Shown piece after piece: positions 24,933 to 64,000 of a DNA stretch of 64,000 nt. Made by a program: the position numbers and the translations under genes. The first letter of the stretch is position 1; every line of letters starts with the position of its first letter. Below the pieces are notes generated by a model. It was given only the letters and a program-made list of their open reading frames with translations, had not been told where the DNA came from and ran no database searches. Origin of the DNA: Cafeteria roenbergensis (taxonomy: Eukaryota; Sar; Bigyra; Bicosoecida; Cafeteriaceae). The stretch lies in contig VLTN01000028.1 of assembly GCA_008330645.1 (NCBI GenBank), forward strand, positions 372,001-436,000. Direction: 5' to 3'.

Positions 24933-26225
24933 TCAATCGCGGTCCTGGATCACACACTCGGCCCACAGCGCATCGGCATCGGCCCCGCTCGGCACGACGC
25001 GCGAGCCTGGTACCCACTGCCGACGGTTCGCGAAGACGTCCGGGTACTCGGTGAACAGCCGGGGCAGCGATTGCGGTCCGTACTGGCGCAGGTATGTCGC
25101 GGGGCGCAAGATGATATTCCTTTCAGCAGCCTCCTCCGCAGACATGAGATGGAAGTCCGGGCGGCCGTAGATGTCCATCCCGCCCCTCTGGCACGCCCTG
25201 ATGCGCTGCGGGTCGAGCAGCCGCGCGTGCCTCAACTCGTGATGCGACTGCAAGGGCAGTTTGCGCCGAATGGCCTTGTCCGATTGGAAAAAGGACATGT
25301 GCCAGCCCCCACCAGAAAACGCTGCGGGGGCCTGGTCGGCCTTAATGCCGAAGGGGTTGCCGCGCTGCACACGCACCAGGCTCGCCCGCACCGCGCCGAC
25401 CTCCTTCAGACGCCAGCCTCGGATTGCCACCATACCCATCCACATGCTGGGGTTGTGGAACATCAGCCCGAAATAGTGCAGGCTCATCAACGGCACGACC
25501 ACGTCGGGTCGGGAGTCCGGCTTGGAAGTGTTGCAATACTTGAGCACCCGCGCCACCGACCGAGACATCACCTCGTCCGCGTCCGACACCACCACCAGGT
25601 CGCTGTCCTGCACACCCAGCCGCTCCAACACGTATGACAGCCCCACACGGCGCCGCTCCGTCTCATAGGCCCAGTTGCACTTCCATGCCCCCAGCGGCTC
25701 GGACGCGTCGGGGAGCTTCACGTCCGTGACGTTTACCAGCCGGGGCGCGATGTCTGCGCACGGCGGCAGCCCGTCCTGCGTGAGGGCGATCACCTTGTTT
25801 CCCAGCCACGGCCCAAGCTCCGACAGCAGCCCTTCGCGCAGCCACGGCCACACTGGTTCGCCACTGAACGTGGTCGTGCCTTCCACGACCACGAACGTGT
25901 CCACGATGTCATGAAGCTCCCGCAGCTTTGTCGCCAGCAGGTGCGTCTCGCGCAGGAACGTTGTCACCTCGACGATGCGTGCGGGGCGTTGCAGGGGCTG
26001 GAGCCCCTTGGTGGCGCAGAAGCCGCGAATGCCCTCTGGCGACGGGTCGAAGTCGTCGCCGTCGCCCGGTCGCGAGAGCCGGAAGTGCCCGATGCGCGGC
26101 GGGGCCGCTGGGTCCTGGCGCGCGAGGCTGTGCATCGAGGCGAGCTTCGCGTTTCCGGGGAGCGTGCCGGCTGCCAGGACGACCAGGAGCGCGGCGGCGG
26201 CACGCATGCGCGCCGCTGCACCCAT
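24933..26225 (-). CDS. GT17-type glycosyltransferase, tandem copy A
   Basis: 430 residues. GT17 enzymes include MGAT3-type beta-1,4-N-acetylglucosaminyltransferases of the secretory pathway. The N-terminus MRAAAALLVVLAAGTLPGNA looks like a signal peptide or short anchor. Family blocks follow in order: DTFVVVEGTTTFSGEP near residue 112, VVSDADEVMSRSV near 215 with the DxD-like DAD, SLHYFGLMFHNPSMW, and GGGWHMSFFQSDKAIRRKL near 306. The ATG at 26225 is conserved in copy C. Copy A differs from B and C mainly in the block after the GWHMSFF motif (LPLQSHHELRHAR against LVLQPHHELQHPR). It is probably expressed from its own upstream repeat, since flanking DNA is duplicated along with the gene. Confidence 0.85.
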   Translation of the reverse strand: MGAAARMRAAAALLVVLAAGTLPGNAKLASMHSLARQDPAAPPRIGHFRLSRPGDGDDFDPSPEGIRGFCATKGLQPLQRPARIVEVTTFLRETHLLATKLRELHDIVDTFVVVEGTTTFSGEPVWPWLREGLLSELGPWLGNKVIALTQDGLPPCADIAPRLVNVTDVKLPDASEPLGAWKCNWAYETERRRVGLSYVLERLGVQDSDLVVVSDADEVMSRSVARVLKYCNTSKPDSRPDVVVPLMSLHYFGLMFHNPSMWMGMVAIRGWRLKEVGAVRASLVRVQRGNPFGIKADQAPAAFSGGGWHMSFFQSDKAIRRKLPLQSHHELRHARLLDPQRIRACQRGGMDIYGRPDFHLMSAEEAAERNIILRPATYLRQYGPQSLPRLFTEYPDVFANRRQWVPGSRVVPSGADADALWAECVIQDRD

Positions 26226-26463
26226 GCAGCGCGGCAGGGCACGCCGTGTGGTCCGTGGCGACCTGGCTGTGGGTGTGGGTGTTTGCGTTGGCTGGAGAGT
26301 TTGCAGAGCTGCGAGTGGTTGCCATGCCAAAGCCGGGCCCAGCTTTCGCCCCGAAACTCGCGTTGGCGGGCCCGGCTGCCCCGCGCTTCCGCCCCTGCGC
26401 GCACCGTGCACGTCGTGGCTGGCGTCCGCCGAGCGGCTTGGCCTCGCCCTGTGCCCATTCAGC

Positions 26464-27738
26464 TCACTCGCGGTCCTGGATCACGCACTCGGCCCACAGC
26501 GCATCGGCATCGGCCCCGCTCGGCACGACGCGCGAGCCTGGTACCCACTGCCGACGGTTGGCGAAGACGTCCGGGTACTCGGTGAACAGCCGGGGCAGCG
26601 ATTGCGGTCCGTACTGGCGCAGGTATGTCGCGGGGCGCAAGATGATATTCCTTTCAGCAGCCTCCTCCGCAGACATGAGATGGAAGTCGGGGCGGCCGTA
26701 GATGTCCATCCCGCCCCTCTGGCACGCCCTGATGCGCTGCGGGTCGAGAAGGCGAGGATGCTGCAGCTCGTGGTGCGGCTGCAGGACCAGCTTGCGCCGC
26801 ATAGCCTTGTCCGATTGGAAAAAGGACATGTGCCAGCCCCCACCAGAAAACACTGCGGGGGCCTGGTCGGTCTTAATGCCGAAGGGGTTGCCGCGCTGCA
26901 CACGCACCAGGCTCGCCCGCACCGCGCCGACCTCCTTCAGACGCCAGCCTCGGATTGCCACCATACACATCCACATGCTGGGGTTGTGGAACATCAGCCC
27001 GAAATAGTGCAGGCTCATCAACGGCACGACCACGTCGGGTCGGAAGTCCGGCTTGGAAGTGTTGCAATACTTGAGCACCCGCGCCACCGACCGAGACATC
27101 ACCTCGTCCGCGTCCGACACCACCACCAGGTCGCTGTCCTGCACACCCAGCCGCTCCAACACGTATGACAGCCCCACACGGCGCCGCTCCGTCTCATAGG
27201 CCCAGTTGCACTTCCATGCCCCCAGCGGCTCGGACGCGTCGGGGAGCTTCACGTCCGTGACGTTTACCAGCCGGGGCGCGATGTCTGCGCACGGCGGCAG
27301 CCCGTCCTGCGTGAGGGCGATCACCTTGTTCCCCAGCCACGGCCCAAGCTCCGACAGCAGCCCTTCGCGCAGCCACGGCCGCACTGGTTCGCCACTGAAC
27401 GTGGTCGTGCCTTCCACGACCACGAACGTGTCCACGATGTCATGAAGCTCCCGCAGCTTTGTCGCCAGCAGGTGCGTCTCGCGCAGAAATGACATGACCT
27501 CGATGATGCGTGCGGGGCGTTGCAGGGGCTGGAGCCCCTTGGTGGCGCAGAAGCCGCGAATGCCCTCTGGCGACGGGTCGAAGTCGTCGCCGTCGCCCGG
27601 TCGCGAGAGCCGGAAGTGCCCGATGCGCGGCGGGGCCGCTGGGTCCTGGCGCGCGAGGCTGTGCATCGAGGCGAGCTTCGCGTTTCCGGGGAGCGTGCCG
27701 GCTGCCAGGACGACCAGGAGCGCGGCGGCGGCACGCAT
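26464..27738 (-). CDS. GT17-type glycosyltransferase, tandem copy B
   Basis: 424 residues, nearly identical to copy A. The codon for the conserved first Met of copies A and C is ACG here, so the start falls six residues later at the Met of MRAAAALL, which leaves the signal-peptide-like stretch intact. DTFVVVEG, SDADEV and GGGWHMSFFQ are all present. Its acceptor-side segment (VQRGNPFGIKTDQAPAVFSG) agrees with copy A except for two residues. The upstream DNA has an extra CTGTGG/GTGGGT repeat compared with A and C and a short deletion near 27880. Confidence 0.84.
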   Translation of the reverse strand: MRAAAALLVVLAAGTLPGNAKLASMHSLARQDPAAPPRIGHFRLSRPGDGDDFDPSPEGIRGFCATKGLQPLQRPARIIEVMSFLRETHLLATKLRELHDIVDTFVVVEGTTTFSGEPVRPWLREGLLSELGPWLGNKVIALTQDGLPPCADIAPRLVNVTDVKLPDASEPLGAWKCNWAYETERRRVGLSYVLERLGVQDSDLVVVSDADEVMSRSVARVLKYCNTSKPDFRPDVVVPLMSLHYFGLMFHNPSMWMCMVAIRGWRLKEVGAVRASLVRVQRGNPFGIKTDQAPAVFSGGGWHMSFFQSDKAMRRKLVLQPHHELQHPRLLDPQRIRACQRGGMDIYGRPDFHLMSAEEAAERNIILRPATYLRQYGPQSLPRLFTEYPDVFANRRQWVPGSRVVPSGADADALWAECVIQDRE

Positions 27739-27995
27739 GCGCGCCGCTGCACCCGTGCGGCGCGGCAGGGCACGCCGTGTGGTCCGCGGCGACCTGGCTG
27801 TGGCTGTGGGTGTGGGTGTTTGCGTTGGCTGGAGAGTTTGCAGAGCTGCTAGTGGTTGCTTTGCCAAAACCGGGCCCAGGCCCCGAAACTCGCGTTGGCG
27901 GGCCCGGCTGCCCCGCGCTTCCGCCCCTGCGCGCACCGTGCACGTCGTGGCTGGCGTCCGCCGAGCGGCTTGGCCTCGCCCTGTGCCCATTCAGC

Positions 27996-29288
27996 TCACT
28001 CGCGGTCCTGGATCACGCACTCGGCCCACAGCGCATCGGCATCGGCCCCGCTCGGCACGACGCGCGAGCCTGGTACCCACTGCCGACGGTTGGCGAAGAC
28101 GTCCGGGTACTCGGTGAACAGCCGGGGCAGCGATTGCGGTCCGTACTGGCGCAGGTATGTCGCGGGGCGCAAGATGATATTCCTTTCAGCAGCCTCCTCC
28201 GCAGACATGAGATGGAAGTCGGGGCGGCCGTAGATGTCCATCCCGCCCCTCTGGCACGCCCTGATGCGCTGCGGGTCGAGAAGGCGAGGATGCTGCAGCT
28301 CGTGATGCGGCTGCAGGACCAGCTTGCGCCGCATAGCCTTGTCCGATTGGAAAAAGGACATGTGCCAGCCCCCATCAACAATCACCATTTCCCGCCCATG
28401 GAGTGTGTCGCCGATGGCGGAGCTCATCCCAAGGCGCACCAGGCTCGCCCGCACCGCGCCGACCTCCTTCAGACGCCAGCCTCGAATAGCAAACAATGTG
28501 GTCCACATGCTGGGGTTGTGGAACATCAGCCCGAAATAGTGCAGGCTCATCAACGGCACGACCACGTCGGGTCGGGAGTCCGGCTTGGAAGTGTTGCAAT
28601 ACTTGAGCACCCGCGCCACCGACCGAGACATCACCTCGTCCGCGTCCGACACCACCACCAGGTCGCTGTCCTGCACACCCAGCCGCTCCAACACGTACGA
28701 CAGCCCCACACGGCGCCGCTCCGTCTCATAGGCCCAGTTGCACTTCCATGCCCCCAGCGGCTCGGACGCGTCGGGGAGCTTCACGTCCGTGACGTTTACC
28801 AGCCGGGGCGCGATGTCTGCGCACGGCGGCAGCCCGTCCTGCGTGAGGGCGATCACCTTGTTTCCCAGCCACGGCCCAAGCTCCGACAGCAGCCCTTCGC
28901 GCAGCCACGGCCGCACTGGTTCGCCACTGAACGTGGTCGTGCCTTCCACGACCACGAACGTGTCCACGATGTCATGAAGCTCCCGCAGCTTTGTCGCCAG
29001 CAGGTGCGTCTCGCGCAGAAATGACATGACCTCGATGATGCGTGCGGGGCGTTGCAGGGGCTGGAGCCCCTTGGTGGCGCAGAAGCCGCGAATGCCCTCT
29101 GGCGACGGGTCGAAGTCGTCGCCGTCGCCCGGTCGCGAGAGCCGGAAGTGCCCGATGCGCGGCGGGGCCGCTGGGTCCTGGCGCGCGAGGCTGTGCATCG
29201 AGGCGAGCTTCGCGTTTCCGGGGAGCGTGCCGGCTGCCAGGACGACCAGGAGCGCGGCGGCGGCACGCATGCGCGCCGCTGCACCCAT
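27996..29288 (-). CDS. GT17-type glycosyltransferase, tandem copy C with replaced segment
   Basis: 430 residues and nearly identical to A and B over most of its length, including the signal-like N-terminus, DTFVVVEG, SDADEV and GWHMSFFQ. One 20-residue block just before GGWHMSFF is completely different (LGMSSAIGDTLHGREMVIVD), and MWTTLFAIRG replaces MWMGMVAIRG upstream. Length is preserved. The block lies next to the conserved catalytic-side motif, so it could alter acceptor or donor choice; that is inference. No stop or frame change accompanies the swap, which suggests a working gene. Confidence 0.84.
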   Translation of the reverse strand: MGAAARMRAAAALLVVLAAGTLPGNAKLASMHSLARQDPAAPPRIGHFRLSRPGDGDDFDPSPEGIRGFCATKGLQPLQRPARIIEVMSFLRETHLLATKLRELHDIVDTFVVVEGTTTFSGEPVRPWLREGLLSELGPWLGNKVIALTQDGLPPCADIAPRLVNVTDVKLPDASEPLGAWKCNWAYETERRRVGLSYVLERLGVQDSDLVVVSDADEVMSRSVARVLKYCNTSKPDSRPDVVVPLMSLHYFGLMFHNPSMWTTLFAIRGWRLKEVGAVRASLVRLGMSSAIGDTLHGREMVIVDGGWHMSFFQSDKAMRRKLVLQPHHELQHPRLLDPQRIRACQRGGMDIYGRPDFHLMSAEEAAERNIILRPATYLRQYGPQSLPRLFTEYPDVFANRRQWVPGSRVVPSGADADALWAECVIQDRE

Positions 29289-32900: not shown

Positions 32901-34800
32901 CCATCGCGCGCTGGTCAGCGCGGCATCACCGCCCAGTCTCTCGTCCATCGTACGGTTTCTGGGCAACGACGCGGCGCTGGCGAGCTGGCTGCGCTCTCAG
33001 CGCAAGGTTCGGCTAGTGGACGTTTGTGGCACCCACGCCCGCAACATGCTCTGGACCGGCAGGGCGGGGCCGTGGGCGCGGGAGTCGGACGCGGCGGACA
33101 GCGGGGAGCGAGGGCGTCTGGCCGCGGCGCGGCTCGCGGGCGGCAGCGCGGCGCAGGGCGTTGGTGGCCCGCTGCCTGCGCTTTCGTCCGGGCTCCAGTC
33201 GCTCTACCGCCACTTCGGCGACCCGGACGAGGCCTTTGCGCGAGACAGCGCGCGGCGGGCAGCGGGCGGGGCGGTGGCGGCCGCGGCGGCGGCCTGCTCT
33301 GGCGATGAGTGGTCCTCCGGGGGCGCTGCCGGCGACGACGACGGCCCAACCGCTGCCGGCGACGACGACGATGACGCCGCCGCCGCCGCGAAAAGCGATG
33401 CAGCCGCGGGGCGAAACCGCCAGGCCGGCGCTGCCGGCGACGACGAGTCCCCCGGCCCCGCGCCCCCCGCCGGCGAGACTTGCCCCGACTCGGTGTTTGA
33501 GGCCTGGGACCGGCCCCCGTGGGAGCTGGGTCCCGCCGCCGCAGAGGGCTGGGACCTCCGGTTCGGGTACGGCACGTTCATGGTGCGGTACGAGGTGGAT
33601 GGCTGCCTCGCGTGCTTCAGCGTCATAGACGTGCTCCCCACCCGCGTGGCTTCTGTGTACCTCTGCTACAACCCGGACCTGCGCCACCTGCAGTGGGGGC
33701 ACATCACCGCGCTGCGCGAGATTGCGCTCACGGACCGCCTGCGAAGGGTCAGTCCTGCCTTGCGCTGGTTCGACCTCAACTTCATAGTTCCGCAGTGTTC
33801 GCGCATGGACTACAAGGCAGAGTACAAGCCGTCCCTCCTGCTCTGTCCCTACACCCACAAGTGGGTCCCGCTCACGAAGGAGCGACTCAGCCTCACAGGA
33901 GCGGCGAGGCACGGGCCCCTCGCCGACGCACCGGCCAGCGGTCGTGAGGGCGGCCCGGACCCCGCCCCCCGCCAAGGCGAGCAAGGGGGCGACCACGACA
34001 ACGACCACGACGTTGCCGGCGACCACGACCACGACCACGACGCCGCCGCCGCCCCGTGCGATCCCGACTCCAACGCCGAGCGCTTCGACCACCCGGCAGG
34101 GGACATGGCAGTGGCCGCGAGGCTGGAGGCGCTCTTCGCCGTGGCTCTGCCTCAGGGCACGGACGTGGTGGGCGCTTGGGCGGGCGACCTGCGCCTGGTG
34201 ACGCTGGCGAGGGCGCAGCCTGCGCCCGCAGGCAGCCTCATGGCGCTGGCCGAGGCAGCGCAGGAGGCGGTGCTGGCCGACCTGGACAGGGAGCGGCAGC
34301 TTCCTGGCGTGCCCGTGGCGGCGCTGCCCCTGCCGAGGCTGCCTCCTCCTCCCGGGCCCACGCCCCCAAAGCGGGAGGTGACCCTTCCGGAGCCGCGAAG
34401 GCGCCAGTGGCCCGAGGGCAGCGCTGCGCGCCGCGTCGCCGAGACAGCGTCCCCTGCGGAGCGCACGCCGCCGCCGCCCGCTGGCTTAACATTGGTGCAC
34501 GTGTCTGGGACAGACCAGTACCTGGACTCGCGGGACATCAGCCGCGTGGCAAAGGAGGCAATGGACAGGCTGCTGCCGGAGCTTCGCTGCCTGCTCTCGC
34601 CGCGGCTCGAGGCGCGGATGCTGATTGACCCCCGCGGCGTGATGCACTTTGCCAGGCTCGACAGGCAGCTGGCCGAGCGCTTGGCAGCGCAGGCAGCAGA
34701 AGCGGAGGAGGAGCAACGGCGCCTGGCAGCGCAGTCTGCCCGGGTCTCGCCCGTATCAGCAATGCTCGAACCGGGGGAGTCCTCTGACAGCAGCGGTTAG
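29960..34800 (+). CDS. ATE1: Arginyl-tRNA--protein transferase (ATE1), greatly enlarged
   Basis: Exons 29960-30135 and 30270-34800 give 1568 residues. ATE1 adds Arg to protein N-termini and so feeds the N-degron pathway. Exon 1 ends with the N-terminal CxxC motif (CTYCHASPTGRIS). Splicing restores SYGMTSNRLSADVYDQML, followed by ERGWMRSGTFSY and ECCCPNLGIKL, the conserved Cys-containing N-domain. The C-domain is equally clear: YGTFMVRYEVDGCLACFSVI, DVLPTRVASVYLCYNPDL, WGHITALREIAL and YKAEYKPSLLLCP. About 1,000 residues of Ala/Gly/Pro-rich sequence, including a hexanucleotide repeat, separate the two, so the protein is three times the normal size. Donor TC-GTGAGA and acceptor CTGCAG fit. The exact Met in exon 1 is the weakest point. 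Confidence 0.9.
31688..31855. repeat. GGCGCT/GGTGCT hexanucleotide repeat in ATE1
   Basis: Tandem hexamers (GGCACT, GGTGCT, GGCGCT, GGTTCT) code a Gly-Thr/Ala/Ser array in the ATE1 linker. Copies vary at codon third positions and at the Ala/Thr/Ser site. Confidence 0.8.
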
Positions 34801-34998: not shown

Positions 34999-35853
34999 TC
35001 AATGGTCTGATCTGCAGCTGTCCAGAGCAGCGACGTTGGAAACAGCTTGGAGACCCGACGTCAAAGCGCGAGCCAGCTCGCCCCCGTCAATCACGCAGCC
35101 ATCGTCGACGTGCAACTCCCGAACAATCTGGGCGGCGTCGCTGTCGGTCAGCTGCATCCCAAACGTTTCCGCCGTTCGAGAAAGCAGGCGGACGAGCCCT
35201 TCCGGGCCGATGGACCCAGGCCCGTGCTCGCCTTCCAGCTTGTCGACTCCGTCGCCAAAACAGTCCATCAGCTCCCGAACGCCCGGCAGGTGAATTGGAT
35301 GCGTGCGCGTGTACGCAACTATGGACATCTCAAGCGTTTCCAGGTCGACGCCTTCTGGAACGCTCCTTGACTCCATTATGTTGTCGCGCAGCTTCCCGGT
35401 CGGCGGGTAGCCGAGCGCAGCAAGAGCGATGCCGACCTCGTGGAAGTCCAGCAGTCCGTCTGCGTTCGCGTCAAGCAGCTGAAAGGTAGTTGCGATCACT
35501 TCCTTGTGATCCTCAGAGAGAGAAAACTCCGGAGGCGGCACAGGGGGGCTTGAGGTGGGCGCTCGCCTTGGCACGCTAGGACGCCGCCTTGAACCAGAGG
35601 CCGCTGCTCCGGTGGCCAGCGCGCGCGCCGTCGACCGACCACGCAGCAGCGCCTCCAGCCGCTCGGAGGCTCCCGGGCCATCCCAAGGCCCTTCTGCTGC
35701 CACTGCTGCGGCGGCTTGGGCGAGTGCCGCGCGCTGCAGCAAAACAGTTTCGCCAAGCGTGGTTGCGGCCTTTCGCAGCCCTGGATTGACGACCATGTCG
35801 TAGCGAGAGCCGGAGAGGCCCGAGTGGGCTGACACGAAGTCCTTGCCAGCCAT
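34999..35853 (-). CDS. EF-hand protein
   Basis: 284 residues. One canonical calcium loop, DANADGLLDFHE, lies near residue 125 with D, N, D, D and E in the binding positions. A second site near the C-terminus (LHVDDGCVIDGGEL) is degenerate and spaced like a paired EF-hand. The intervening helices (LVRLLSRTAETFGMQLTDSDAAQIVREL) resemble the calmodulin/centrin arrangement. The N-terminus is Ala-rich with a basic RSTARALATG stretch and has no membrane segment. Role unknown; a calcium sensor is the simplest reading. It converges with ATE1 across 198 bp. No introns are needed. Confidence 0.72.
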   Translation of the reverse strand: MAGKDFVSAHSGLSGSRYDMVVNPGLRKAATTLGETVLLQRAALAQAAAAVAAEGPWDGPGASERLEALLRGRSTARALATGAAASGSRRRPSVPRRAPTSSPPVPPPEFSLSEDHKEVIATTFQLLDANADGLLDFHEVGIALAALGYPPTGKLRDNIMESRSVPEGVDLETLEMSIVAYTRTHPIHLPGVRELMDCFGDGVDKLEGEHGPGSIGPEGLVRLLSRTAETFGMQLTDSDAAQIVRELHVDDGCVIDGGELARALTSGLQAVSNVAALDSCRSDH

Positions 35854-49414: not shown

Positions 49415-52400
49415 GTGCTGGCAGCCGGCCAAGTTCGATTGCTGCTTCCCTCACCTTGGCCGGCCGCCCGCTTCCTCGCAGTGGCCGACCGCAGCACAGA
49501 TGACGGGTACAATACCGGGTTGGTAGATCACGGTGAACCACCCGCGGCGGGAGAGGTCGCGGCCCCACAAGCCGGCGCTGCGGGAGCGGGCCACTATGCA
49601 GCTGTGCTTCAGCAAACCGTCCTCGCCCCTGGCCAAGTCACGCAAGCCGGCGCAGCCCCTGGCGCTGCAGCTCCTGAATTCTACGTGCCGCCCCGGGTTG
49701 AACACCCGGCCGCAGCCGGCGCGCCTCGCCCCGAGACTGTGGGCGACAAGGCCGCGCGCCTCCGCAACAAGGCCACGCTCACCGCCCACGACCACCTGAA
49801 GCGCCTGGAGGACCTGACGGGAGTGAGACAGGCCTTCCAGCGCATCACCGAGGGCGCCGCCGACGCCATCGCCTGGGCCTTCCACGACGCCAAGCAGCGC
49901 AAGCGCTGCGGCGACGACAGGCCGCTTCAGGCCATCACGCAGGAGTGCGTGGGCCGCTTGCGGGGCGGCGAGAGTCTCCAGGTGGTGGACGCAGGCATCG
50001 CGGGGGGCGTCAAGGTGGCCGACCCCAGCAGGGGGGCCTTCTTCAAGATCGCCGAGGACACGGTGGGCATCTACGGGGGCTCGTCCGTGATGGCGGACAA
50101 GGCGGCCAAGCACGAGCTGGCCATGCTCACGCACCTCCACGAGGCGGACGCGGCGCGGCTGCTCACCGTGCCGCTGGCGTCGTGCGTGGACGTGACGGTG
50201 CGCGACGCGGCTGGTCGGCCGGAGCGGGTATACCGCGTGCAGGGCTTCTCTCGCCACGCGGTCGGCGACGACACGCTTCGGGTGGGATCGGGCGATGGCG
50301 GGAACACGACACACGTGTGCGAGGAGCTGGACGGCGTGGCGGAGGAGCTGGCGGCGGGGCTGCACCTGGCCCCGAGTCTGAAGGCTCCCATCTCTGGCAA
50401 CTTCACGCGGCACGAGTACCGGAGGGTGCGGGGCGACAGGGACCCGGACGGCTTCCCACGGATGGGCCCAGCCACCGACGCGCTGCTGGCGAGCGTGGGG
50501 GCGGGGCGGCATGCGCTCGAGAGCTCGGGGGTGTGCGCGCAGGTGGAGGAGGAGCACGGCGTGGTGCTGGACCCACTGCGGTCAGTGCACGCGGAGCACA
50601 GCGCCACTGTCGCCAAAGATGCCGGTGGCGTGCCGACTCGTCTGCCGTTCGACGTGGAACTGCACGCGCTGCCGTGGGGCGAGGTGGTACTGCTGGACAC
50701 GCACCGGCTGTGCATCCCCGACGTGACGATCGGCGGTGCGGTGGCGGGTGGCCAGGTGGCGGTTGCGTGGGCCGCTGCGCCCGGGGTTCTGTCTGGCGCT
50801 GATGGTAAAGGTGGCAGGGCAGCTGTGGATGATTCGTCCTCGTCCTCGCCGGTGCTGCGAGTGGTGGGGCTGCCGGAGGGCGGCTCGACTGACGCTGCCT
50901 TGGCCACGCTGGCCGCTCGGGAGGCTGGGCTCTTGACTGGTGCCGCCGCTCCGGTGTGGAAGGCGGTCGAGCTGGGCCCACTGGCGTCGTGCTGCGGGGT
51001 GGCGGTGCTGCAGTCGAGCGACGGGGCGATCCGAGTGCTCCTGCCGCGGCCCGGGCAGTACTGGCGGGCGGATCACCTGACGGCCCTGTTCCGTCCCGAG
51101 GCGGCGGCCGTGCTTCGGGAGGCGGGGGCAGAGCCGGTGTCACCGGACGCCGTGATGGCCGGTGGCGCGGATGAAAGGGGTAGAGCGATGGGCAGGCTTG
51201 TGGCGGCGGGAAGCGTGTTGCTGGGCGCCGACAACGTGGCCCGGGCGGCGGACGCGGTGCAGGAGCGTCTGGAGGAGTGCTGGCGAGCGGGGCGGGCTGA
51301 TGACATTGCGTGGGTGCGTCGAGCGGTCAAGGCCGGCCTTCACTACCACGGACTGGGGCTGCGGCACGCCTGGCGGGTGCTGGGCGTGATACTGGACCGA
51401 GCAGGGGAGCCCGGCGGTGTGGGGCTGCCTGTATCGGTGCTACGCGCCGCTGCGGCATGCGCCAGCCTGCCGAGTCCCGGGTCGAGCGGGGCAGCGGCAC
51501 TGGAGGGTCTGGTGTCAGAGGGAGCTGCGGGGGGCGCCGATGCGGATGCGGTCTGGCTGCTGGCGTGCTGCGTGGCTCGTGGTGTGGCGGCTAAGGGGCG
51601 CGGCGTGCCGCTGGTGACGGCGGTGATGATGGGCCGGGCAGCAGCCGCTGGTGGTTGTGCCGTCGGGCAGGCATGGGGGGCCTTGCAGCGGGGGAGCGGA
51701 CGGCGCATGAAGGTGTCTGGGTCCGGCGCGCAGGGCGAGCGGCGAGGCGCTGCACTGTCGTTTGGGGGCGGCTCGGCGGCACTGGCAGAGCGCATGATTG
51801 GGTCACAGCTGCGCGGTTTGCGGCTGAGCGAGCGGCTGTGCGGCGAGGGGTGGCGACACCACCGAGCCGACGCAGCATACTCGCTGTCGGAGACATGCGC
51901 ACGGGCGTCTTCAGATGGCGCGTTGGAGGTGCTGTGCTTGTTGGTGGCGGCGGGGTGGAGCGATAGCTCTGGTGCGGGGAATGCTGTGGGGACGAGGCTT
52001 CAGGCATGTGCTTTCCGCCTTCTGGAACGAGGCGATTACGATGCGGCGCTTGGCCTGCTGGAGCGGTGCAGGGACATCTACGCCTCGTCGCTGGGCGAGG
52101 AGCACCCGAGCTTCGCGAACACGCTGTACACGATGGCGCAGTGTCGGCGTGCCAAGGGGGAGTACGATGCGGCGCTGGATCTGCTGGATCGGTGCAGGGA
52201 CATCTACGCCTCGTCGCTGGGCGAGGAGCACCCGAGCTTCGCGAACACGCTGTACACGATGGCGCAGTGTCGGCGTGCCAAGGGGGAGTACGATGCGGCG
52301 CTGGATCTGCTGGATCGGTGCAGGGACATCGAGGCCTCGTCGCTGGACGAGGAGCACCCGAGCTTCGCGAACACGCTGTACACGATGGCGCAGTGTCGGC

Positions 52401-53413
52401 AGGACAAGGGGGAGTACGATGCGGCGCTGGATCTGCTGGAGCGGTGCAGGGACATCTACGCCTCGTCGCTGGGCGAGGAGCACCCGAGCTTCGCGAAGAC
52501 GCTGTACACGATGGCGCAGTGTCGGCGTGCCAAGGGGGAGTACGATGCGGCGCTGGATCTGCTGGATCGGTGCAGGGACATCTACGCCTCGTCGCTGGGC
52601 GAGGAGCACCCGAGCTTCGCGAACACGCTGTACACGATGGCGCAGTGTCGGCGTGCCAAGGGGGAGTACGATGCGGCGCTGGATCTGCTGGAGCGGTGCA
52701 GGGACATCCAGGCCTCGTCGCTGGGCGAGGAGCACCCGAGCTTCGCGAACACGCTGTACACGATGGCGCAGTGTCGGCGTGACAAGGGGGAGTACGATGC
52801 GGCGCTGGATCTGCTGGAGCGGTGCAGGGACATCTACGCCTCGTCGCTGGGCGAGGAGCACCCGAGCTTCGCGAACACGCTGTACACGATGGCGCAGTGT
52901 CGGCGTGACAAGGGGGAGTACGATGCGGCGCTGGATCTGCTGGAGCGGTGCAGGGACATCTACGCCTCGTCGCTGGGCGAGGAGCACCCGAGCTTCGCGA
53001 GGACGCTGTACACGATGGCGCAGTGTCGGCGTGCCAAGGGGGAGTACGATGCGGCGCTGGATCTGCTGGATCGGTGCAGGGACATCTACGCCTCGTCGCT
53101 GGGCGAGGAGCACCCGAGCTTCGCGAAGACGCTGTACACGATGGCGCAGTGTCGGCAAGAGAAGGGGGAGTACGATGCGGCGCTGGATCTGCTGGATCGG
53201 TGCAGGGACATCGAGGCCTCGTCGCTGGGCGAGGAGCACCCGAGCTTCGCGAAGACGCTGTACACGATGGCGCAGTGTCGGCAGGACAAGGGGGAGTACG
53301 ATGCGGCGCTGAACCTGCTCACTAGGTGCTGTGAGATCTTCGCGAGGTCTTTGGGTGAAGAGCACCCCCATTTCCTGCTTGCATGTCGAGCGATTGAACT
53401 TTGCTTGCAGTGA
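49415..53413 (+). CDS. Clu-like domain protein with 11 KLC-type TPR repeats
   Basis: An open frame of up to 1332 codons. The 5' end is unresolved: the frame begins at a GTG, the first in-frame ATG is only at about 50090, and a spliced leader exon is likely. About 49990-50740 resembles the CLU domain of clustered-mitochondria proteins: GAFFKIAEDTVGIYGG, AAKHELAMLTHL, the VPL stretch, VGSGDGGNT and the LPFDVELHALPWGEVVLLDT block, then LFRPEAAAVLR further on. From about 52010 the protein is eleven 42-residue TPRs of kinesin-light-chain type (YDAALDLLDRCRDIYASSL, GEEHPSFANTLYTMAQCR). CLU proteins usually have CLU plus a few TPRs and bind mRNA; this one is divergent and its TPR array is freshly expanded. 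The stop at 53411-53413 lies 33 bp from a LINE fragment. Confidence 0.65.
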   Translation: MLAAGQVRLLLPSPWPAARFLAVADRSTDDGYNTGLVDHGEPPAAGEVAAPQAGAAGAGHYAAVLQQTVLAPGQVTQAGAAPGAAAPEFYVPPRVEHPAAAGAPRPETVGDKAARLRNKATLTAHDHLKRLEDLTGVRQAFQRITEGAADAIAWAFHDAKQRKRCGDDRPLQAITQECVGRLRGGESLQVVDAGIAGGVKVADPSRGAFFKIAEDTVGIYGGSSVMADKAAKHELAMLTHLHEADAARLLTVPLASCVDVTVRDAAGRPERVYRVQGFSRHAVGDDTLRVGSGDGGNTTHVCEELDGVAEELAAGLHLAPSLKAPISGNFTRHEYRRVRGDRDPDGFPRMGPATDALLASVGAGRHALESSGVCAQVEEEHGVVLDPLRSVHAEHSATVAKDAGGVPTRLPFDVELHALPWGEVVLLDTHRLCIPDVTIGGAVAGGQVAVAWAAAPGVLSGADGKGGRAAVDDSSSSSPVLRVVGLPEGGSTDAALATLAAREAGLLTGAAAPVWKAVELGPLASCCGVAVLQSSDGAIRVLLPRPGQYWRADHLTALFRPEAAAVLREAGAEPVSPDAVMAGGADERGRAMGRLVAAGSVLLGADNVARAADAVQERLEECWRAGRADDIAWVRRAVKAGLHYHGLGLRHAWRVLGVILDRAGEPGGVGLPVSVLRAAAACASLPSPGSSGAAALEGLVSEGAAGGADADAVWLLACCVARGVAAKGRGVPLVTAVMMGRAAAAGGCAVGQAWGALQRGSGRRMKVSGSGAQGERRGAALSFGGGSAALAERMIGSQLRGLRLSERLCGEGWRHHRADAAYSLSETCARASSDGALEVLCLLVAAGWSDSSGAGNAVGTRLQACAFRLLERGDYDAALGLLERCRDIYASSLGEEHPSFANTLYTMAQCRRAKGEYDAALDLLDRCRDIYASSLGEEHPSFANTLYTMAQCRRAKGEYDAALDLLDRCRDIEASSLDEEHPSFANTLYTMAQCRQDKGEYDAALDLLERCRDIYASSLGEEHPSFAKTLYTMAQCRRAKGEYDAALDLLDRCRDIYASSLGEEHPSFANTLYTMAQCRRAKGEYDAALDLLERCRDIQASSLGEEHPSFANTLYTMAQCRRDKGEYDAALDLLERCRDIYASSLGEEHPSFANTLYTMAQCRRDKGEYDAALDLLERCRDIYASSLGEEHPSFARTLYTMAQCRRAKGEYDAALDLLDRCRDIYASSLGEEHPSFAKTLYTMAQCRQEKGEYDAALDLLDRCRDIEASSLGEEHPSFAKTLYTMAQCRQDKGEYDAALNLLTRCCEIFARSLGEEHPHFLLACRAIELCLQ
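52017..53320. repeat. 126-bp tandem repeat, about 10 nearly identical units
   Basis: Each unit codes one 42-residue TPR. Inner units differ at only a few bases, mostly in the codons giving D/E, Y/E/Q, N/K/R and A/D/E. The first unit and the last (an eleventh, mostly beyond this span) are more diverged, the usual pattern for arrays homogenised by unequal crossing over. The frame is kept throughout. Confidence 0.93.
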
Positions 53414-53446: not shown

Positions 53447-54032
53447 GTATAATGAATGAACATCGTTGGGGGGGGGGTCAAAAACTCGCGTAACCATACC
53501 ACACACTCGATTCACAGACTCATCACTCACCAATCCAGCAACTCCATCACCGATGAGTCACAAACCGCGCCAAACCCACAATCCCAAGTCTCAAGTCCCA
53601 GATCCCTGCCATCACGATGCAACGAGTCGCCAATCAGCCGCCCCTGCTCACCGCAAACGCTCCACCTGCTGTCGCAGGTACTGCGTCTGCCCGATCAGCT
53701 GGGTCGCCAGTCCCTTGGCGATGACCTCGTTCAGCCTCGACAGCCAGCGGAAGGCCCAGCGCGCACGCTCCCTCGGCCGGTCACCGAAGGCCGTGTCCGC
53801 CACCTTCTTGAGGAAGGCGAAGGCCGCCGGTCCCATGCGTCCCGTGGTCGTGATGACGAAGGGCACAATGGAGCTCAAGTTGTCCTTTGTAGCTGAGCTC
53901 TTCTTGTACTCCCCCATCTTGTCCTTCTCACGGCGCTCGAGAAAGGCGTCCATGTTCTGCAGGCCCTGCGTCACGTAGGACTTGCTCACCGCCGAGGTGA
54001 TCTGCACGTCGACGAGACGGGTGGTCTCGAGT
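53447..54032 (-). mobile_element. 5'-truncated LINE copy (same family as 56633-62299)
   Basis: About 585 bp match the 3' end of the full-length LINE: the last about 125 codons of its ORF, ending RQQVER, plus a 3' UTR of about 200 bp that finishes at CAACGATGTTCATTCA on the minus strand. A sampled stretch of about 130 bp of coding DNA has two differences, so the copy is young. Homology stops abruptly near 54032, as expected for 5' truncation during target-primed reverse transcription. The remaining frame is still open. The C-run in the 3' UTR is 10 bases here and 8 in the long copy. Confidence 0.9.
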
Positions 54033-54261: not shown

Positions 54262-56589
54262 CTACGCCACGGCGCACTCGCCGGACGAGACGCTCTTATG
54301 AGCCTCAGCGGAGAAAGCACGTGCACCGTCACGCCTGCAGCTTTGGGCGCTCGTCCGCCAGGCCAGGAGCCAAAACCGTCGCTCCCAAGTTGTCGGTGTT
54401 GTAAGCGCCTCGAGTAAGTCCGTGTGGCCAGAGAGCCGCAGCATCGCGAGGTTTGCCCAAACGGAGACACCAGACGACGGCACGGGCGCGCCGGCTTTCC
54501 GCAGCAGCCGAACTATAACGGTACTGCAACTCTGGAACGCCGCCACGTCAAGCGGTGACTTGCCTTGCCTGTCAGGGATGCACGGGTCGGCGCCGGCGGC
54601 AAGCAGGCGGCGCACGAGTCGGGTGTCCGGCTTGCGGCATGCGATCAAGAGAGGCGTCGCGCCATTGTCCGTCCTGGCCTTGTTCACGTCCGCCCCGGCC
54701 TCCACAAGCAGGCGGCGCACGAGTCGGGTGTCCGGCTTGCGGCATGCGATTAAGAGAGGCGTCGCGCCGATATCTGTCCTGGCCTTGTTCACATCCGCCC
54801 CAGCCTTCACAAGCTGCCGCACCACCGCGTCGTGGCCGTTCTGGCATGCGATGTAGAGAGGCGTCGCGCCATTGTCCGTCGTGGCCTTGTTCACATCCGC
54901 CCCAGCCTTCACAAGCTGCCGCACCACTGCATCGTGACCGCTGTGGCAGGCGATGAGCAGAGGCGTCACGCCGTCGTCCGTCCTGGCCTTGTTCACATCC
55001 GCCCCAGCCTCCACAAGCAGCCGTGCCACCGCGTCGTGGCCCTTCTGGCATGCCGTGAAAAGAGGCGTCGCGCCGTCGCTCGTCCTGGCCTTATTCACAT
55101 CCGCCCCAGCCTCCACAAGCAGCTGCACCACCGCGTCGTGGCCATTCCGGGATGCCATGTAGAGAGGCGTCGCGCCATTGTCCGTCGTGGCCTTGTTCAC
55201 ATCCGCCCCAGCCTTCACAAGCTGCCGCACCACTGCATCGTGACCGCTGTGGCAGGCGATGAGCAGAGGCGTCACGCCGTCGTCCGTCCTGGCCTTGTTC
55301 ACATCCGCCCCAGCCTCCACAAGCAGCCGCACCACCGCATTGTGGCCGTTCCAGCATGCAGTGTAGAGAGGCGTCGCGCCGTCATCCGTCGTGGCCTTGT
55401 TCGCATCCGCCCCAGCCTCCACAAGCAGCTGCGCCACCGCATCGTGACCGTTGTGGCATGCCATGAAAAGTGGCGTCGCGCCGTCGTTCGTCCTGGCCTT
55501 GTTCACATCCGCCCCAGCCTCCACGAGCACCCGCGCCACCGCATCGTGACCATTTTCGCATGCGATGAACAGGGGCGTCGCGCCGTCGTCCGTCCTGGCC
55601 TTGTTCACATCCGCCCCAGCCTCCACAAGCACCCGCGCCACCGCATCGTGACCGTTCTCGCATGCGATGAACAGGGGCGTCCCCCCCCCGTCCGTCCTGG
55701 CCTTGTTCACATACGCCCCAGCCTCCACAAGCAGCCGCACCACCGCATCGTGACCGTTGTGGCATGCCATGAAAAGTGGCGTCGCGCCGATGTTCGTCCT
55801 GGCCTTGTTCGCATCCGCCCCGGCCTCCACAAGCAGCCGCACCACCACATTGTGGCCGTTCCAGCATGCAGTGTAGAGAGGCGTCGCGCCGTCGTTCGTC
55901 CTGGCCTTGTTCACATCCGCCCCAGCCTCCACGAGCACCCGCGCCACCGCATCGTGACCATTTTCGCATGCGATGAACAGGGGCGTCGCGCCGTCGTCCG
56001 TCCTGGCCTTGTTCACATCCGCCCCAGCCTTCACAAGCACCCGCGCCACCGCATCGTGACCATTTTCGCATGCGATGAACAGGGGCGTCGCGCCGTCGTC
56101 CGTCCTGGCCTTGTTCACATCCGCCCCAGCCTCCACAAGCAGCCGCACCACCGCATCGTGACCGTCCTCGCATGCGATGAACAGGGGCGTCGCGCCACCG
56201 TCCGTCGTGGCCTTGTTCACATCCGCCCCAGCCTCCACAAGCAGCCGCACCACCGCATCGTGACCGTCCTGGCATGCCATGAACAGGGGCGTCACGCCAT
56301 CGTCCGTCGTGGCCTTGTTCACATCCGCACCAGCCTCCACGAGCAGTCGCGCCACCGCATCGTGGCCGTTCCAGCATGCGATGAAAAGCGGCGTCGCGCC
56401 GTCGTCCGTCGTGGCCATGCTGACATCCGCCCCAGCCTCCACAAGCAGCCGCACCACCGCATCGTGACCGTCCTGGCATGCGATGAACAGGGGCGTCACG
56501 CCATCGTCCGTCGTGGCCTTGTTCACATCCGCCCCAGCCTCCACAAGCAGCCGCACCACCGCCTCGTGGCCGTCCTTGCATGCCAGCAA
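54262..56589 (-). CDS. Large ankyrin-repeat protein, 5' end missing or displaced
   Basis: 775 codons, open throughout but with no ATG at the 5' end (the frame opens with TTG inside a repeat). Upstream the same frame continues as GLDVACDGRGRTPLLLAC and then runs into the 3' end of the LINE at about 56633, so the LINE appears to cut the gene from its start. About 19 repeats of 34 residues follow (GHDAVVRLLVEAGADVNKA, TTDDGATPLFIAC), one residue longer than the canonical 33 because of an extra residue in the loop. The last units diverge (CRKPDTRLVRRLL), and a unique C-terminal domain of about 80 residues contains LEALTTPTTWERRFWLLAW. Whether it is expressed from a new start is unknown; a truncated pseudogene is possible. 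Confidence 0.65.
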   Translation of the reverse strand: MLACKDGHEAVVRLLVEAGADVNKATTDDGVTPLFIACQDGHDAVVRLLVEAGADVSMATTDDGATPLFIACWNGHDAVARLLVEAGADVNKATTDDGVTPLFMACQDGHDAVVRLLVEAGADVNKATTDGGATPLFIACEDGHDAVVRLLVEAGADVNKARTDDGATPLFIACENGHDAVARVLVKAGADVNKARTDDGATPLFIACENGHDAVARVLVEAGADVNKARTNDGATPLYTACWNGHNVVVRLLVEAGADANKARTNIGATPLFMACHNGHDAVVRLLVEAGAYVNKARTDGGGTPLFIACENGHDAVARVLVEAGADVNKARTDDGATPLFIACENGHDAVARVLVEAGADVNKARTNDGATPLFMACHNGHDAVAQLLVEAGADANKATTDDGATPLYTACWNGHNAVVRLLVEAGADVNKARTDDGVTPLLIACHSGHDAVVRQLVKAGADVNKATTDNGATPLYMASRNGHDAVVQLLVEAGADVNKARTSDGATPLFTACQKGHDAVARLLVEAGADVNKARTDDGVTPLLIACHSGHDAVVRQLVKAGADVNKATTDNGATPLYIACQNGHDAVVRQLVKAGADVNKARTDIGATPLLIACRKPDTRLVRRLLVEAGADVNKARTDNGATPLLIACRKPDTRLVRRLLAAGADPCIPDRQGKSPLDVAAFQSCSTVIVRLLRKAGAPVPSSGVSVWANLAMLRLSGHTDLLEALTTPTTWERRFWLLAWRTSAQSCRRDGARAFSAEAHKSVSSGECAVA

Positions 56590-56600
56590 GAGAGGCGTCC
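54640..56600. repeat. 102-bp tandem repeat coding ankyrin units, about 19 copies
   Basis: Units share the core CATCCGCCCCAGCCTCCACA and differ at clustered sites. Higher-order structure is visible: units giving CHSGHDAVVRQLVKAGADVN occur twice in the same context, and a pair giving ENGHDAVARVLVEAGADVN recurs four units later. This points to block duplications of two to four units. Confidence 0.9.
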
Positions 56601-56632
56601 GCCCCCGCCCGTCACAAGCGACATCAAGGCCT

Positions 56633-59600
56633 TGTGAATGAACATCGTTGGGGGGGGTCGAAAACTCGCGTCACCATACCACACACTCGATTCACAGACT
56701 CACCAATCACCAATCCAGCAACTCCATCACCAATGAGTCACAAACCGCGCCAAACCCACAATCCCAAGTCTCAAATCCCAGATCCCTGCCATCACACTGC
56801 CTCGAGTCACCACACAGCCGCCCCTGCTCACCGCATACGCTCCACCTGCTGCCGCAGGTACTGCGTCTGCCCGATCAGCTGGGTCGCCAGTCCCTTGGCG
56901 ATGACCTCGTTCAGCCTCGACAGCCAGCGGAAGGCCCAGCGCGCACGCTCCCTCGGCCGATCACCGAAGGCCGTGTCCGCCACCTTCTTGAGGAAGGCGA
57001 AGGCCGCCGGTCCCATGCGTCCCGTGGTCGTGATGACGAAGGGCACAATGGAGCTCAAGTTGTCCTTTGTAGCTGAGCTCTTCTTGTACTCCCTCATCTT
57101 GTCATTCTCACGGCGCTCGAGAAAGGCGTCCATGTTCTGCAGGCCCTGCGTCACGTAGGACTTGCTCACCGCCGAGGTGATCTGCACGTCGACGAGACAG
57201 GTGGTCTCGAAGTCGACGTGCACCCGCAGGTCCGGTCGCTTGCGCGCGGCCTCGCTGGACCCCGGCTGGGACCCGAAGCGCGTCTGCCCGTCCTGCCAGC
57301 TGGAGGGCTCCACCACCGACTGTAGCCCCGCCGAGCGCACCGCCGCGTGCAGGACGTCGCGAACGTCGTTGTGCGCCCGGATGGTGGAGCCCTTGCCGCA
57401 GCGGCAGCGCGCCAGGTGATGTGCCACGCCCGAGACCCCGCCGATGTGGACGGTGCCTCTCGCGGTGGTATCTCGCTGCACGCACGCGCAGTTGATCGAC
57501 ACGCCGTCTGGCACCACGTGGTCAGCCTCGGAGGCTCCGATGCGGTAGCGGGTGACCACCGCGAACTCCTCGTCTGTGAGCCCGCGGGGTCCCATCATCA
57601 TCGTGTTGCGGAGCCAGTAGTGCGTTCCCGGCACGCACGCCTCTCGGAACGCGACCAGGTCGCTCATGACGCGTAGCATGGCCGGGTCGTCGATGTTGGC
57701 GACACGCTTCTCCGGCGTGCCCTTGGCCAGCGCCTCGGCCCTGCAGCGTGCTGTGCAGGCCCTGCGCGCCTTGGCCAGACGGCGCAGGAAGACACACTCG
57801 TGCTTGATGCGCAGCATGTCGTCGTGGTGCAGCACCATCTTGCGCTGCCAGGGCGCCTCGGTCTGCTCGTTCGCCCGCGCTGTCACCCCGTCGCCGTACA
57901 GGCACTTGCGGAGCTTGGCCTTCAGCTCGCCCGGCAGCTTACCCAGGGTGTCGGGCAAGAAGCCCTCGAACCCTGTCGCTGCGGCCAGGCAGCGGGCTCC
58001 CTTGCAGGCCCTGATGAACTCCTCCACCAGGTTTGCCGCTGCCTCCATGTCATCCGACGACTCGTCGTCAGATCTGAGCTCCATCATCGCCTCCAGCGCC
58101 AGCTCCTCGATCTCGGCGCGCAGCTCTTCCAGGCCCTCGACAGCCCCCGCGATGTCAGACCTCCACACATGCGCCAGCTGGTAGCGCTTCTTCACCCTGG
58201 CGGCATGAAGGTCGGCCTCCTTGCCCACGACGCAGTCCTTGTCCGGCCTGAAGTACCGTGCCTCGGTGCAGGCGTCCTTGTACTCCTTGCTGTCCCGCTC
58301 GTAGTCCCGGTAGGCTCCCTTGGCGACCTCCTCGCATCGCAGCAGGATGTCGCCCACCTCCTTGGTCGCATCGCTGCGGTCTGAGCGCCTCAGCGCCCGC
58401 ATCACGAGTTTCTTGAGCGAGATGCCCTTCCAGTTGGGGTCGTTGCCGTCCGCGTCCGCGTCGGGTCCGTCCCTGGCCAACCCGATCGCCGGCGTTCGCC
58501 TGACCGAGTAGACCTGTGCCGCATCCGCTCTCGGCTGTGCGGCATCAGATGTCTCTTGGCCGGTTGGAGCGCCAGCCGCACTAGCTGCCGCTGCGCCGCC
58601 GCCGCTCGTCGTCATCTCGGTCGCCGCTCCCGCCGCGCTGGCGGCAGCCGCACCTCCGCCGACCGTCTGGCCTCCGCTTGTCGGTGTTGGCTGATGCTCC
58701 GGTTCAGCCGCTCCCCCCGTACCGCTGACGAGCCAGCCGTCCAGCGTACCTGCAAGCTGCTGCCCGTGCGCCGGCCCCTCCTCGCAGTCCTCCTTGGACT
58801 CGCTCTCTCCGACCGCCGGGTGGTCCACCCACGGCGTGCCGCCCGCTGCAGCAGCCGCCGCACCCGACTCATCCTCCGCTTCCGCCTCGCCGGCGTTGGC
58901 TGGTCCCGCTCCGGCACCACTCCCCGACGCTGGCTCTCCTCCGCCTCCACCAGTGCCGGGTCCGTCGAGGGCCTCCTCCGGCGGTGGTGCCATCTCGAAC
59001 CGCCCTTTCCGCATGTCCCGAACGGCCTCGATGAAGCCCGCTGTCGCTTCGAAGCGGAACTGCGCCACGCCAGGCAGGCCCATGCCCCCGGCTTTGCAGC
59101 CCTTGCTCAGCATCTTTGCCAGCCTCATCTGAGCGTAGCCTCCCTTCTTCAAGGCCGGGTTGGACGCTGCCGATGCGAGCCGAGTCACACCGTCGGCTTC
59201 CCGGCCCAGGAGCGCCCACCACGCCTCCCGCCTTGCGTGCTCGTCCGGCAGCCCCCGAACAAGCGCCTCGATGGCCTTGGACATGGCCTCACGGAAGCCG
59301 TCCTCGGTCACCGTGCACATCTCGTCCGAGAGCGCGTGGCCGATCGCATCCAGCTCCGTCTTGTGCGCCACTGCCGCCAGGTTGGCCAGCAGCGCCGCAT
59401 GGAACACCGCCAGCTCCTGGCCCGCCGCCGCACCCGCTGCTCTGTGCAGGTAGCTGAACTTCTGTCCGAGCACTGACAGCAGTAGGTGGTGCGCCCGCTT
59501 GAGCCCGCAGACCTCGATGCCCGCGAGCAGGCGCTCCGCCGCCGGCCCGAACTCCTTCTCTAGTCGCTTCATCGACTGCTCTAGGGCCACCTCCGGTGAG

Positions 59601-62490: not shown

Positions 62491-64000
62491 TGCGCCTCTG
62501 GCCACACGCGGTCGCGCGCCCCTCGGTCCGCCCGTCCACACGCCTCTCAGAACGCCCGGCCGTGGTCCTCCGGGCCCCCGCAGCCGCCCTTCCTCCGGTA
62601 CGCATTGCCTCGCGCCCTCGGAAACGCGCGGCCGTGTGCCCGTTGGCAGCCTCGACCGCCCGCTCGCCGGAACGCGTTGCCTCGCGCCCTCGGAAACGCG
62701 CGGCCGTGTGCCCGTTGGCAGCCTCGACCGCCCGCTCGCCGGAACGCGTTGCCTCGCGCCCTCGGAAAAACGCGCGGCCGTGTGCCCGTTGGCAGCCTCG
62801 ACCGCCCGCTCGCCGGAACGCGTTGCCTCGCGCCCTCGGAAACGCGCGGCCGTGTGCCCGTTGGCAGCCTCGACCGCCCGCTCGCCGGAACGCGTTGCCT
62901 CGCGCCCTCGGAAACGCGCGGCCGTGTGCCCGTTGGCAGCCTCGACCGCCCGCTCGCCGGAACGCGTTGCCTCGCGCCCTCGGAAACGCGCGGCCGTGTG
63001 CCCGTTGGCAGCCTCGACCGCCCGCTCGCCGGAACGCGTTGCCTCGCGCCCTCGGAAACGCGCGGCCGTGTGCCCGTTGGCAGCCTCGACCGCCCGCTCG
63101 CCGGAACGCGTTGCCTCGCGCCCTCGGAAACGCGCGGCCGTGTGCCCGTTGGCAGCCTCGACCGCCCGCTCGCCGGAACGCGTTGCCTCGCGCCCTCGGA
63201 AACGCGCGGCCGTGTGCCCGTTGGCAGCCTCGACCGCCCGCTCGCCGGAACGCGTTGCCTCGCGCCCTCGGAAACGCGCGGCCGTGTGCCCGTTGGCAGC
63301 CTCGACCGCCCGCTCGCCGGAACGCGTTGCCTCGCGCCCTCGGAAACGCGCGGCCGTGTGCCCGTTGGCAGCCTCGACCGCCCGCTCGCCGGAACGCGTT
63401 GCCTCGCGCCCTCGGAAACGCGCGGCCGTGTGCCCGTTGGCAGCCTCGACCGCCCGCTCGCCGGAACGCGTTGCCTCGCGCCCTCGGAAACGCGCGGCCG
63501 TGTGCCCGTTGGCAGCCTCGACCGCCCGCTCGCCGGAACGCGTTGCCTCGCGCCCTCGGAAACGCGCGGCCGTGTGCCCGTTGGCAGCCTCGACCGCCCG
63601 CTCGCCGGAACGCGTTGCCTCGCGCCCTCGGAAACGCGCGGCCGTGTGCCCGTTGGCAGCCTCGACCGCCCGCTCGCCGGAACGCGTTGCCTCGCGCCCT
63701 CGGAAACGCGCGGCCGTGTGCCCGTTGGCAGCCTCGACCGCCCGCTCGCCGGAACGCGTTGCCTCGCGCCCACGGAAACGCGCGGCCGTGTGCCCGTTGG
63801 CAGCCTCGACCGCCCGCTCGCCGGAACGCGTTGCCTCGCGCCCTCGGAAACGCGCGGCCGTGTGCCCGTTGGCAGCCTCGACCGCCCGCTCGCCGGAACG
63901 CGTTGCCTCGCGCCCTCGGAAACGCGCGGCCGTGTGCCCGTTGGCAGCCTCGACCGCCCGCTCGCCGGAACGCGTTGCCTCGCGCCCTCTCGTTGGTTGA
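62490..64000. repeat. 72-bp satellite array, about 19 units, running off the window
   Basis: Tandem units built on CGTTGCCTCGCGCCCTCGG, AACGCGCGGCCGTGTGCC and CGTTGGCAGCCTCGACCGCC. From about 62600 the units are almost identical. One unit near 62766 has two extra A bases, which shifts the frames. Diverged units lie at the left edge (about 62490-62600). At 63986 the pattern breaks (CCTCTCGTTGGTTGA) at the window end. The unit length is divisible by three, so long frames are open on both strands, but the predicted peptides are only Arg/Pro/Ala repeats and are not credible proteins. Confidence 0.93.

Follow-up and report, generated by a model that had tools for sequence, protein, structure and literature searches.

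Sharply bounded islands of divergence in a near-identical tandem array of GT17 genes of Cafeteria roenbergensis, probably left by short-tract gene conversion

Three tandem glycosyltransferase family 17 (GT17) genes of the protist Cafeteria roenbergensis, which later papers name C. burkhardae, are identical to one another over long tracts, silent sites included, and are interrupted by bounded islands in which the copies diverge strongly. The reading that we consider probable is concerted evolution by short-tract gene conversion, with fast-evolving segments left unhomogenised, and the array is a new example of a known pattern. It lies in a window of 64,000 nucleotides, the whole stretch of DNA that was analysed (GenBank contig VLTN01000028.1, C28:372001-436000), in a genome that was searched as 36,303,456 bases in 167 contigs. 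The three units stand head-to-tail on the minus strand with a spacing of 1531 and 1532 bp, and all three frames are open:

24933 to 26411, minus strand: GT17 gene A, open frame (Pfam PF04724, 66.2 bits, cut-off 26)
26464 to 27990, minus strand: GT17 gene B, open frame (PF04724, 64 bits)
27996 to 29288, minus strand: GT17 gene C, open frame (PF04724, 65.8 bits)

The scores of 64-66 bits have to be compared with the curated Pfam cut-off of 26 for PF04724, Glycosyltransferase family 17, the MGAT3 family. The activity expected of a GT17 enzyme is N-acetylglucosaminyl transfer to a glycan. A paralogue outside the array, D (C103:49826-51100), whose protein is 68% identical to that of C, passes the cut-off too, and a family search of the genome returned further members, two of them in tandem on C44 (F and E) and a weaker one on C5. 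Both a DxD-type metal motif and the conserved G-W-H motif are present in the array proteins when these are aligned with 59 viral GT17 rows: D215, D217, E218, G307 and H309 of C are common to 59/59 rows and W308 to 58/59, and the DxDE residues and G-W-H motif of A, B, C and D all align with the viral ones. The viral rows were used only for conservation and for the structure model, and consist of 56 of 80 profile matches, after near-duplicates were dropped, plus three from a motif search; among environmental viral GT17s the motif pattern gave 41 loci and seven frames with both motifs, while the profile gave 272 matches of which 80 were kept. No relative was found by a direct IMG/VR search with array gene C and GT17 copy E, nor by a search of prokaryote genomes with alignment A1.

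B and C differ at 54 of 1,331 aligned bases, and 47 of these differences are found inside 77 bp, which leaves seven (0.56%) for the alignment outside the islands. None of 300 position shuffles of B and C produced such a dense window. The islands and the tract between them, together with two islands in A, are:

28375 to 28434, minus strand: main divergent island of C, residues 285-305, in the length-variable loop directly before GGWHMSFF; 37 of 60 bases differ from B
28435 to 28484, minus strand: identical B/C tract of 50 bp between the islands, with no differences; it holds the codon of Arg280, which is shared with 59/59 viral GT17 rows
28485 to 28501, minus strand: short second island of C (residues 263-268), which differs from B at 10 of 17 bases
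25218 to 25272, minus strand: divergent island of A versus B, with 16 differences; here B and C are closer to D than to A
25956 to 25973, minus strand: second small island of A versus B, with seven differences

The original prediction had placed two replaced patches with an unchanged stretch between them in C, and this outline stands, with the edges shifted to those given above and a middle of 50 bp. Its description of the patch as completely different was too strong, as about 62% of the bases differ and 38% still match, while its observation that length and frame are kept in C holds. The changed residues were said to sit just before GGWHMSFF, which is true of the larger patch; the smaller one lies about 40 residues upstream of this motif and about 20 residues before the loop. 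Nor is the divergence special to C, since A has islands of its own, which the original prediction had missed. A alone differs from the shared state of B and C at 28 sites, 22 of them in codons 59-64 and 292-310, and over the 28 private sites D has the B/C base at 20, that of A at five and neither at three. In codons 292-310, A and B differ at 16 of 57 sites, A and D at 15, and B and D at five. The shuffle test had marked two dense windows between A and B, one of which is an alignment end beside an indel and was excluded as an island.

In the codon alignment of B and C, 27 patch codons hold 47 of the 51 differences and the other 378 codons hold four. The patch differences are distributed over codon positions 1, 2 and 3 as 19, 14 and 14, so that third positions differ at 14 of 27 codons; the changes are therefore not restricted to amino acids, and silent positions changed too. 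At the protein level, five of 27 patch residues are shared, against 352 of 353 elsewhere (A's island codons left out). Positive selection acting through point mutations limited to C's loop after a recent duplication would account for the fact that 22 of the 25 changed patch codons alter the amino acid, and for the differences between A and B in the same patch, where three of 81 sites differ, all of them amino-acid changing and none silent, compared with 7/1,059 elsewhere (p=0.029, A's islands left out). It is nevertheless very improbable: third positions are as changed as second positions (14/27 each), the contrast of 47 changes in 81 sites with 3 in 1,059 would imply an implausible rate, and kinase genes of the same genome carry similar islands.

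The outside paralogue D gives a direction to the change. At 45 patch sites C differs from the shared state of A and B, and D agrees with C at 22 of them, with A/B at nine and with neither at 14 (22 versus 9, p=0.03), counts that are small and come from a segment that is nearly saturated. As C's patch is thus closer to D than that of A/B is, C is probably the less changed copy, judged from the sequence comparison, and not the recipient of DNA from a more distant paralogue. The original prediction had proposed a short conversion from a diverged paralogue; gene conversion is likely, given the mosaic, whereas import into C is the part left unsupported, because D sides with C, which speaks against a patch imported into C from a paralogue outside the group of the array and D. 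The same comparison also contains a counter-argument to our preferred explanation. Over the 81 sites of C's patches the distances are 39 for C-D, 47 for B-C and 53 for B-D, and in A's island codons the distance B-D is likewise smaller than A-B. Had the copies diverged long ago inside the array, once it had separated from D, distances within the array ought to be the smaller ones; as B-C is not the smallest, either a faster-evolving loop in A/B, that is, uneven rates, or some exchange between loci must be added to this explanation.

Exchange between the array and D was considered in its own right. In sliding windows from codon 280 the identity of B and D is 0.89-0.96 and that of A and D 0.73-0.84, with overall values of 0.738 and 0.726. 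The high identity of B/C with D suggested that the array and D had exchanged DNA directly by conversion at codons ~281-308, but such a tract could not be established, as the silent sites are not significant: B and D differ at 5/28 silent sites in codons 281-313 versus 87/241 elsewhere (p=0.06; p=0.15 for C-D), 5,000 window shuffles at silent sites found no unusual window (P=0.99), and the 32-base identical run of B and D in this region falls slightly short of the 33 bases that mark the 95% level in codon shuffles. At codons ~80-110, A, B and C all share a 47-base identical run with D that is beyond 95% of codon shuffles; conservation of the silent sites there is not unusual (P=0.39). With silent-site tests that are not significant, we infer gene conversion from the mosaic and not from a proven tract.

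An alternative explanation begins with a recent duplication, after which a short conversion tract would have imported either C's patch or the version of A/B from a diverged paralogue or allele that is now lost, unassembled or carried by other individuals. Sharp edges, the retention of length and frame and changes at all codon positions are what such an import would leave behind, and the closer resemblance of C to D than to B in the patches fits an exchange between loci. The original prediction had named the lack of a paralogue with the patch, in the genome or in relatives, as what would count against it, and as far as this genome could be searched, that is the outcome. No other copy was found in it by DNA or by peptide: the DNA query 28370-28510 matched only its own locus and, in A and B, the conserved middle of 56 bp, the only matches at E<=10 of a peptide of 69 residues spanning the patch were C, B, D and A, and a short-word search with the 62-bp patch in 194 kb of genome DNA gave nothing beyond shuffles, as 59 of 80 shuffled sequences reached the same score or a higher one. 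Each version of the island in the kinase pair on C22, described below, also matched itself and nothing else in the genome; as these searches missed even the sister copy, short matches can escape them. According to passages of the genome paper (PMC6972860), this organism seems to be a diploid whose redundant alleles were taken out of the published assembly, so that a donor allele could be missing, and C's patch could still be carried by such an allele or by another individual. Two further points speak against the import: a patch that is more D-like in C than in A/B is the reverse of what import into C from an older paralogue predicts, and two imports around an untouched 50 bp would be required. 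We regard it as doubtful, although it is the most serious competitor of concerted evolution with unhomogenised islands.

The main island occupies a distinctive place in the protein. Arg280, Gly307 and His309 are shared by C, B and A with 59/59 viral rows, and in at least 50 of these 59 rows gaps stand opposite residues 286-295, which places the island within a length-variable loop of the family. In an AF2 model (pTM 0.73) a helix at 270-287 is followed by a low-confidence loop at 289-297 and by the strand that carries the motif at 300-311, so that residues 286-305 cover the end of the helix, the loop and the first half of the strand. To assess a GT-A fold, the model was compared with the PDB, which gave mostly glycosyltransferases and a few nucleotidyltransferases from E 1.5e-5, at modest TM-scores by query length of only 0.23-0.33; a sequence search of solved structures with C found none, and the hits of a profile search, all of them ribosomal proteins with E values of at least 0.03, are regarded as chance matches. 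In GT-A enzymes, according to a passage of a survey (PMC7185993), acceptor specificity depends in part on HV2, a hypervariable segment that lies between strands 6 and 7. Like the island, HV2 is a variable segment located after the DxD region and before a Gly-containing loop, and from this order and the predicted secondary structure, without superposition, the main island may be its equivalent. The acceptor-side role that the original prediction suggested for the changed residues is plausible, since in the alignment the patch forms a loop of variable length with an invariant Arg on one side and the GGWH motif on the other.

The loop also differs from the rest of the gene in its rate of change and its composition. 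Compared with D, 48-65% of its sites differ in the three copies versus about 24% in the rest. Third-position GC is lower in the patch than elsewhere in A (p=0.04), B (p=0.04) and C (p=0.0006), with p=0.13 for D, a difference to which the amino-acid make-up of the loop could contribute. Converted parts are expected to have raised third-position GC, according to a passage of PMC2720389, and the lower value in the patch fits with more conversion outside it.

Similar mosaics are present in other gene pairs of the same genome, kinases among them. The pattern is not confined to this enzyme array and does not bear out the suggestion of the original prediction that the array generates enzyme variants. 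In the GT17 pair F/E, 132 of 139 differences are in three islands totalling 249 bp, and 0.49% of sites differ outside them; a 54-bp identical tract lies between islands. The two short F/E islands are coding and the long one, of about 195 aligned bp with gaps and a coding-looking end, may be largely an intron. On C44 the length-variable stretch of the pair (33405-33569 and ~35595-35834) has an open frame in both copies and is possibly an intron. A match in position between the E/F islands and C's island was dropped, because the alignment has too many gaps in this region and because the E/F island that precedes AGWHCSWC stops about 14 residues short of it, while C's island touches its own motif. 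In the kinase pair on C22, 47 of 54 differences fall in one 87-bp island within an open frame and with its length kept; in the pair on C18, 24 of 58 are found in 44 bp, and a finer setting resolves five small islands; and in the older pair on C26, with 88% identity, stretches with 0-4 differences per 50 bp alternate with stretches of 7-18. No island is present in the FkbM pair on C9, whose eight differences are scattered over 1,426 bp, a point against the preferred explanation. Islands are thus found in five of six alignable nearby sets (GT17 A/B/C, GT17 F/E, the three kinase pairs and FkbM), a non-random sample of close neighbours with similar scores chosen from family hit lists, for which only some of the kinase neighbours were fetched. 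The kinase cluster on C42 gave no alignment of at least 300 bp, searches of the cysteine peptidase and exostosin families found no near-equal neighbouring pair, and 40 kb at C5:1-40000 contain no duplicates of at least 150 bp. Dense windows arose in 0 of 300 shuffles for A/B, 0 for FkbM, 1 for C22, 1 for C18, 129 for F/E and 15 for A/C, which makes this statistic weaker for F/E and A/C. A 4.4-kb duplicate on separate contigs, 98.9% identical, never exceeds six differences per 50 bp; it consists of C43:299800-304175, near a contig end, and C58:31120-35500, has scattered differences and is possibly a leftover haplotype.

The recurrence of islands also bears on the possibility of an assembly effect, in which the patch would be a chimera or polishing would have hidden true differences between the remaining parts of the units. 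According to a passage of the genome paper (PMC6972860), polishing used mapped PacBio reads and afterwards Illumina reads, a procedure by which sparse differences between near-identical units could have been lost. On the other hand, no sequence from which a chimera could have arisen was found in the assembly, a loop that is new and yet in frame is not what polishing should create, and four other places show the pattern as well. This effect is very unlikely to account for the islands: polishing could have erased sparse differences outside them, but should not have made them.

Other repeats are present in the window. Self-comparison revealed a tandem repeat at 62541-63989, near the contig end, with offsets mostly in 72-bp steps, and a tandem array with steps of about 126 bp at 52031-53367. 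Two direct copies of a sequence of about 578 bp (53453-54030 and 56635-57210), with 96% identity, stand on either side of an array with steps of about 102 bp (54600-56613) and could be the long terminal repeats of an element.

Concerted evolution through short conversion tracts would combine these observations as follows. Gene conversion would repeatedly copy one unit of the array over another and thereby keep A, B and C alike, while the loop, which may tolerate change, would diverge fast. Once two loops had become very different, pairing across them would fail, conversion tracts would stop at their edges and the island would persist. C's island would then be an older divergence and not a fresh insert, with C the more D-like copy and A and B sharing the more changed version. 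A point against this reading is that the identical tract of 50 bp between the islands requires very short conversion tracts, and the short tracts implied by such pieces, 50 bp here and 54 bp in F/E, are the most unusual feature of the system. Escape from conversion may have come about by fast evolution or by failed pairing, and the two loops may have been kept apart by selection or by chance escape.

The array offers a clear and testable case in a little-studied protist, with near-identity and loop divergence within 150 bp of each other, and points to a genome with mosaic copies of tandem genes. Trees built from whole genes of its tandem families could therefore mislead. Should the loop determine the acceptor, the nearly identical proteins of A/B and C would produce different glycans and would offer a ready-made experiment on GT17 specificity. 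A much bolder and improbable extension would be that unusually short-tract conversion acts genome-wide and keeps tandem genes identical down to pieces of ~50 bp while leaving loops free, with the GT17 arrays as a reservoir of acceptor loops that are exchanged among copies and alleles and change surface glycans under pressure from giant viruses or grazing.

Islands that persist despite conversion are a known pattern, described in passages of PMC3728101 and PMC2720389, and a full-text literature search for Cafeteria together with gene conversion returned no title on this subject. The closest counterpart considered here is provided by the GOT1 genes of Tigriopus californicus, for which passages of PMC3728101 describe islands of divergence between gene-converting paralogues and also mention opsin genes, RH genes and the Teshima-Innan model. 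In both systems, near-identical paralogues carry strongly divergent coding segments that have clear limits and keep the reading frame. Compared with GOT1, the Cafeteria islands are short, at 9-87 bp except for the one 195-bp island of F/E that is maybe an intron, and some of them are separated by only 50-54 bp of identical tract. They also occur in two gene families of one protist genome, where the mosaic itself points to conversion.
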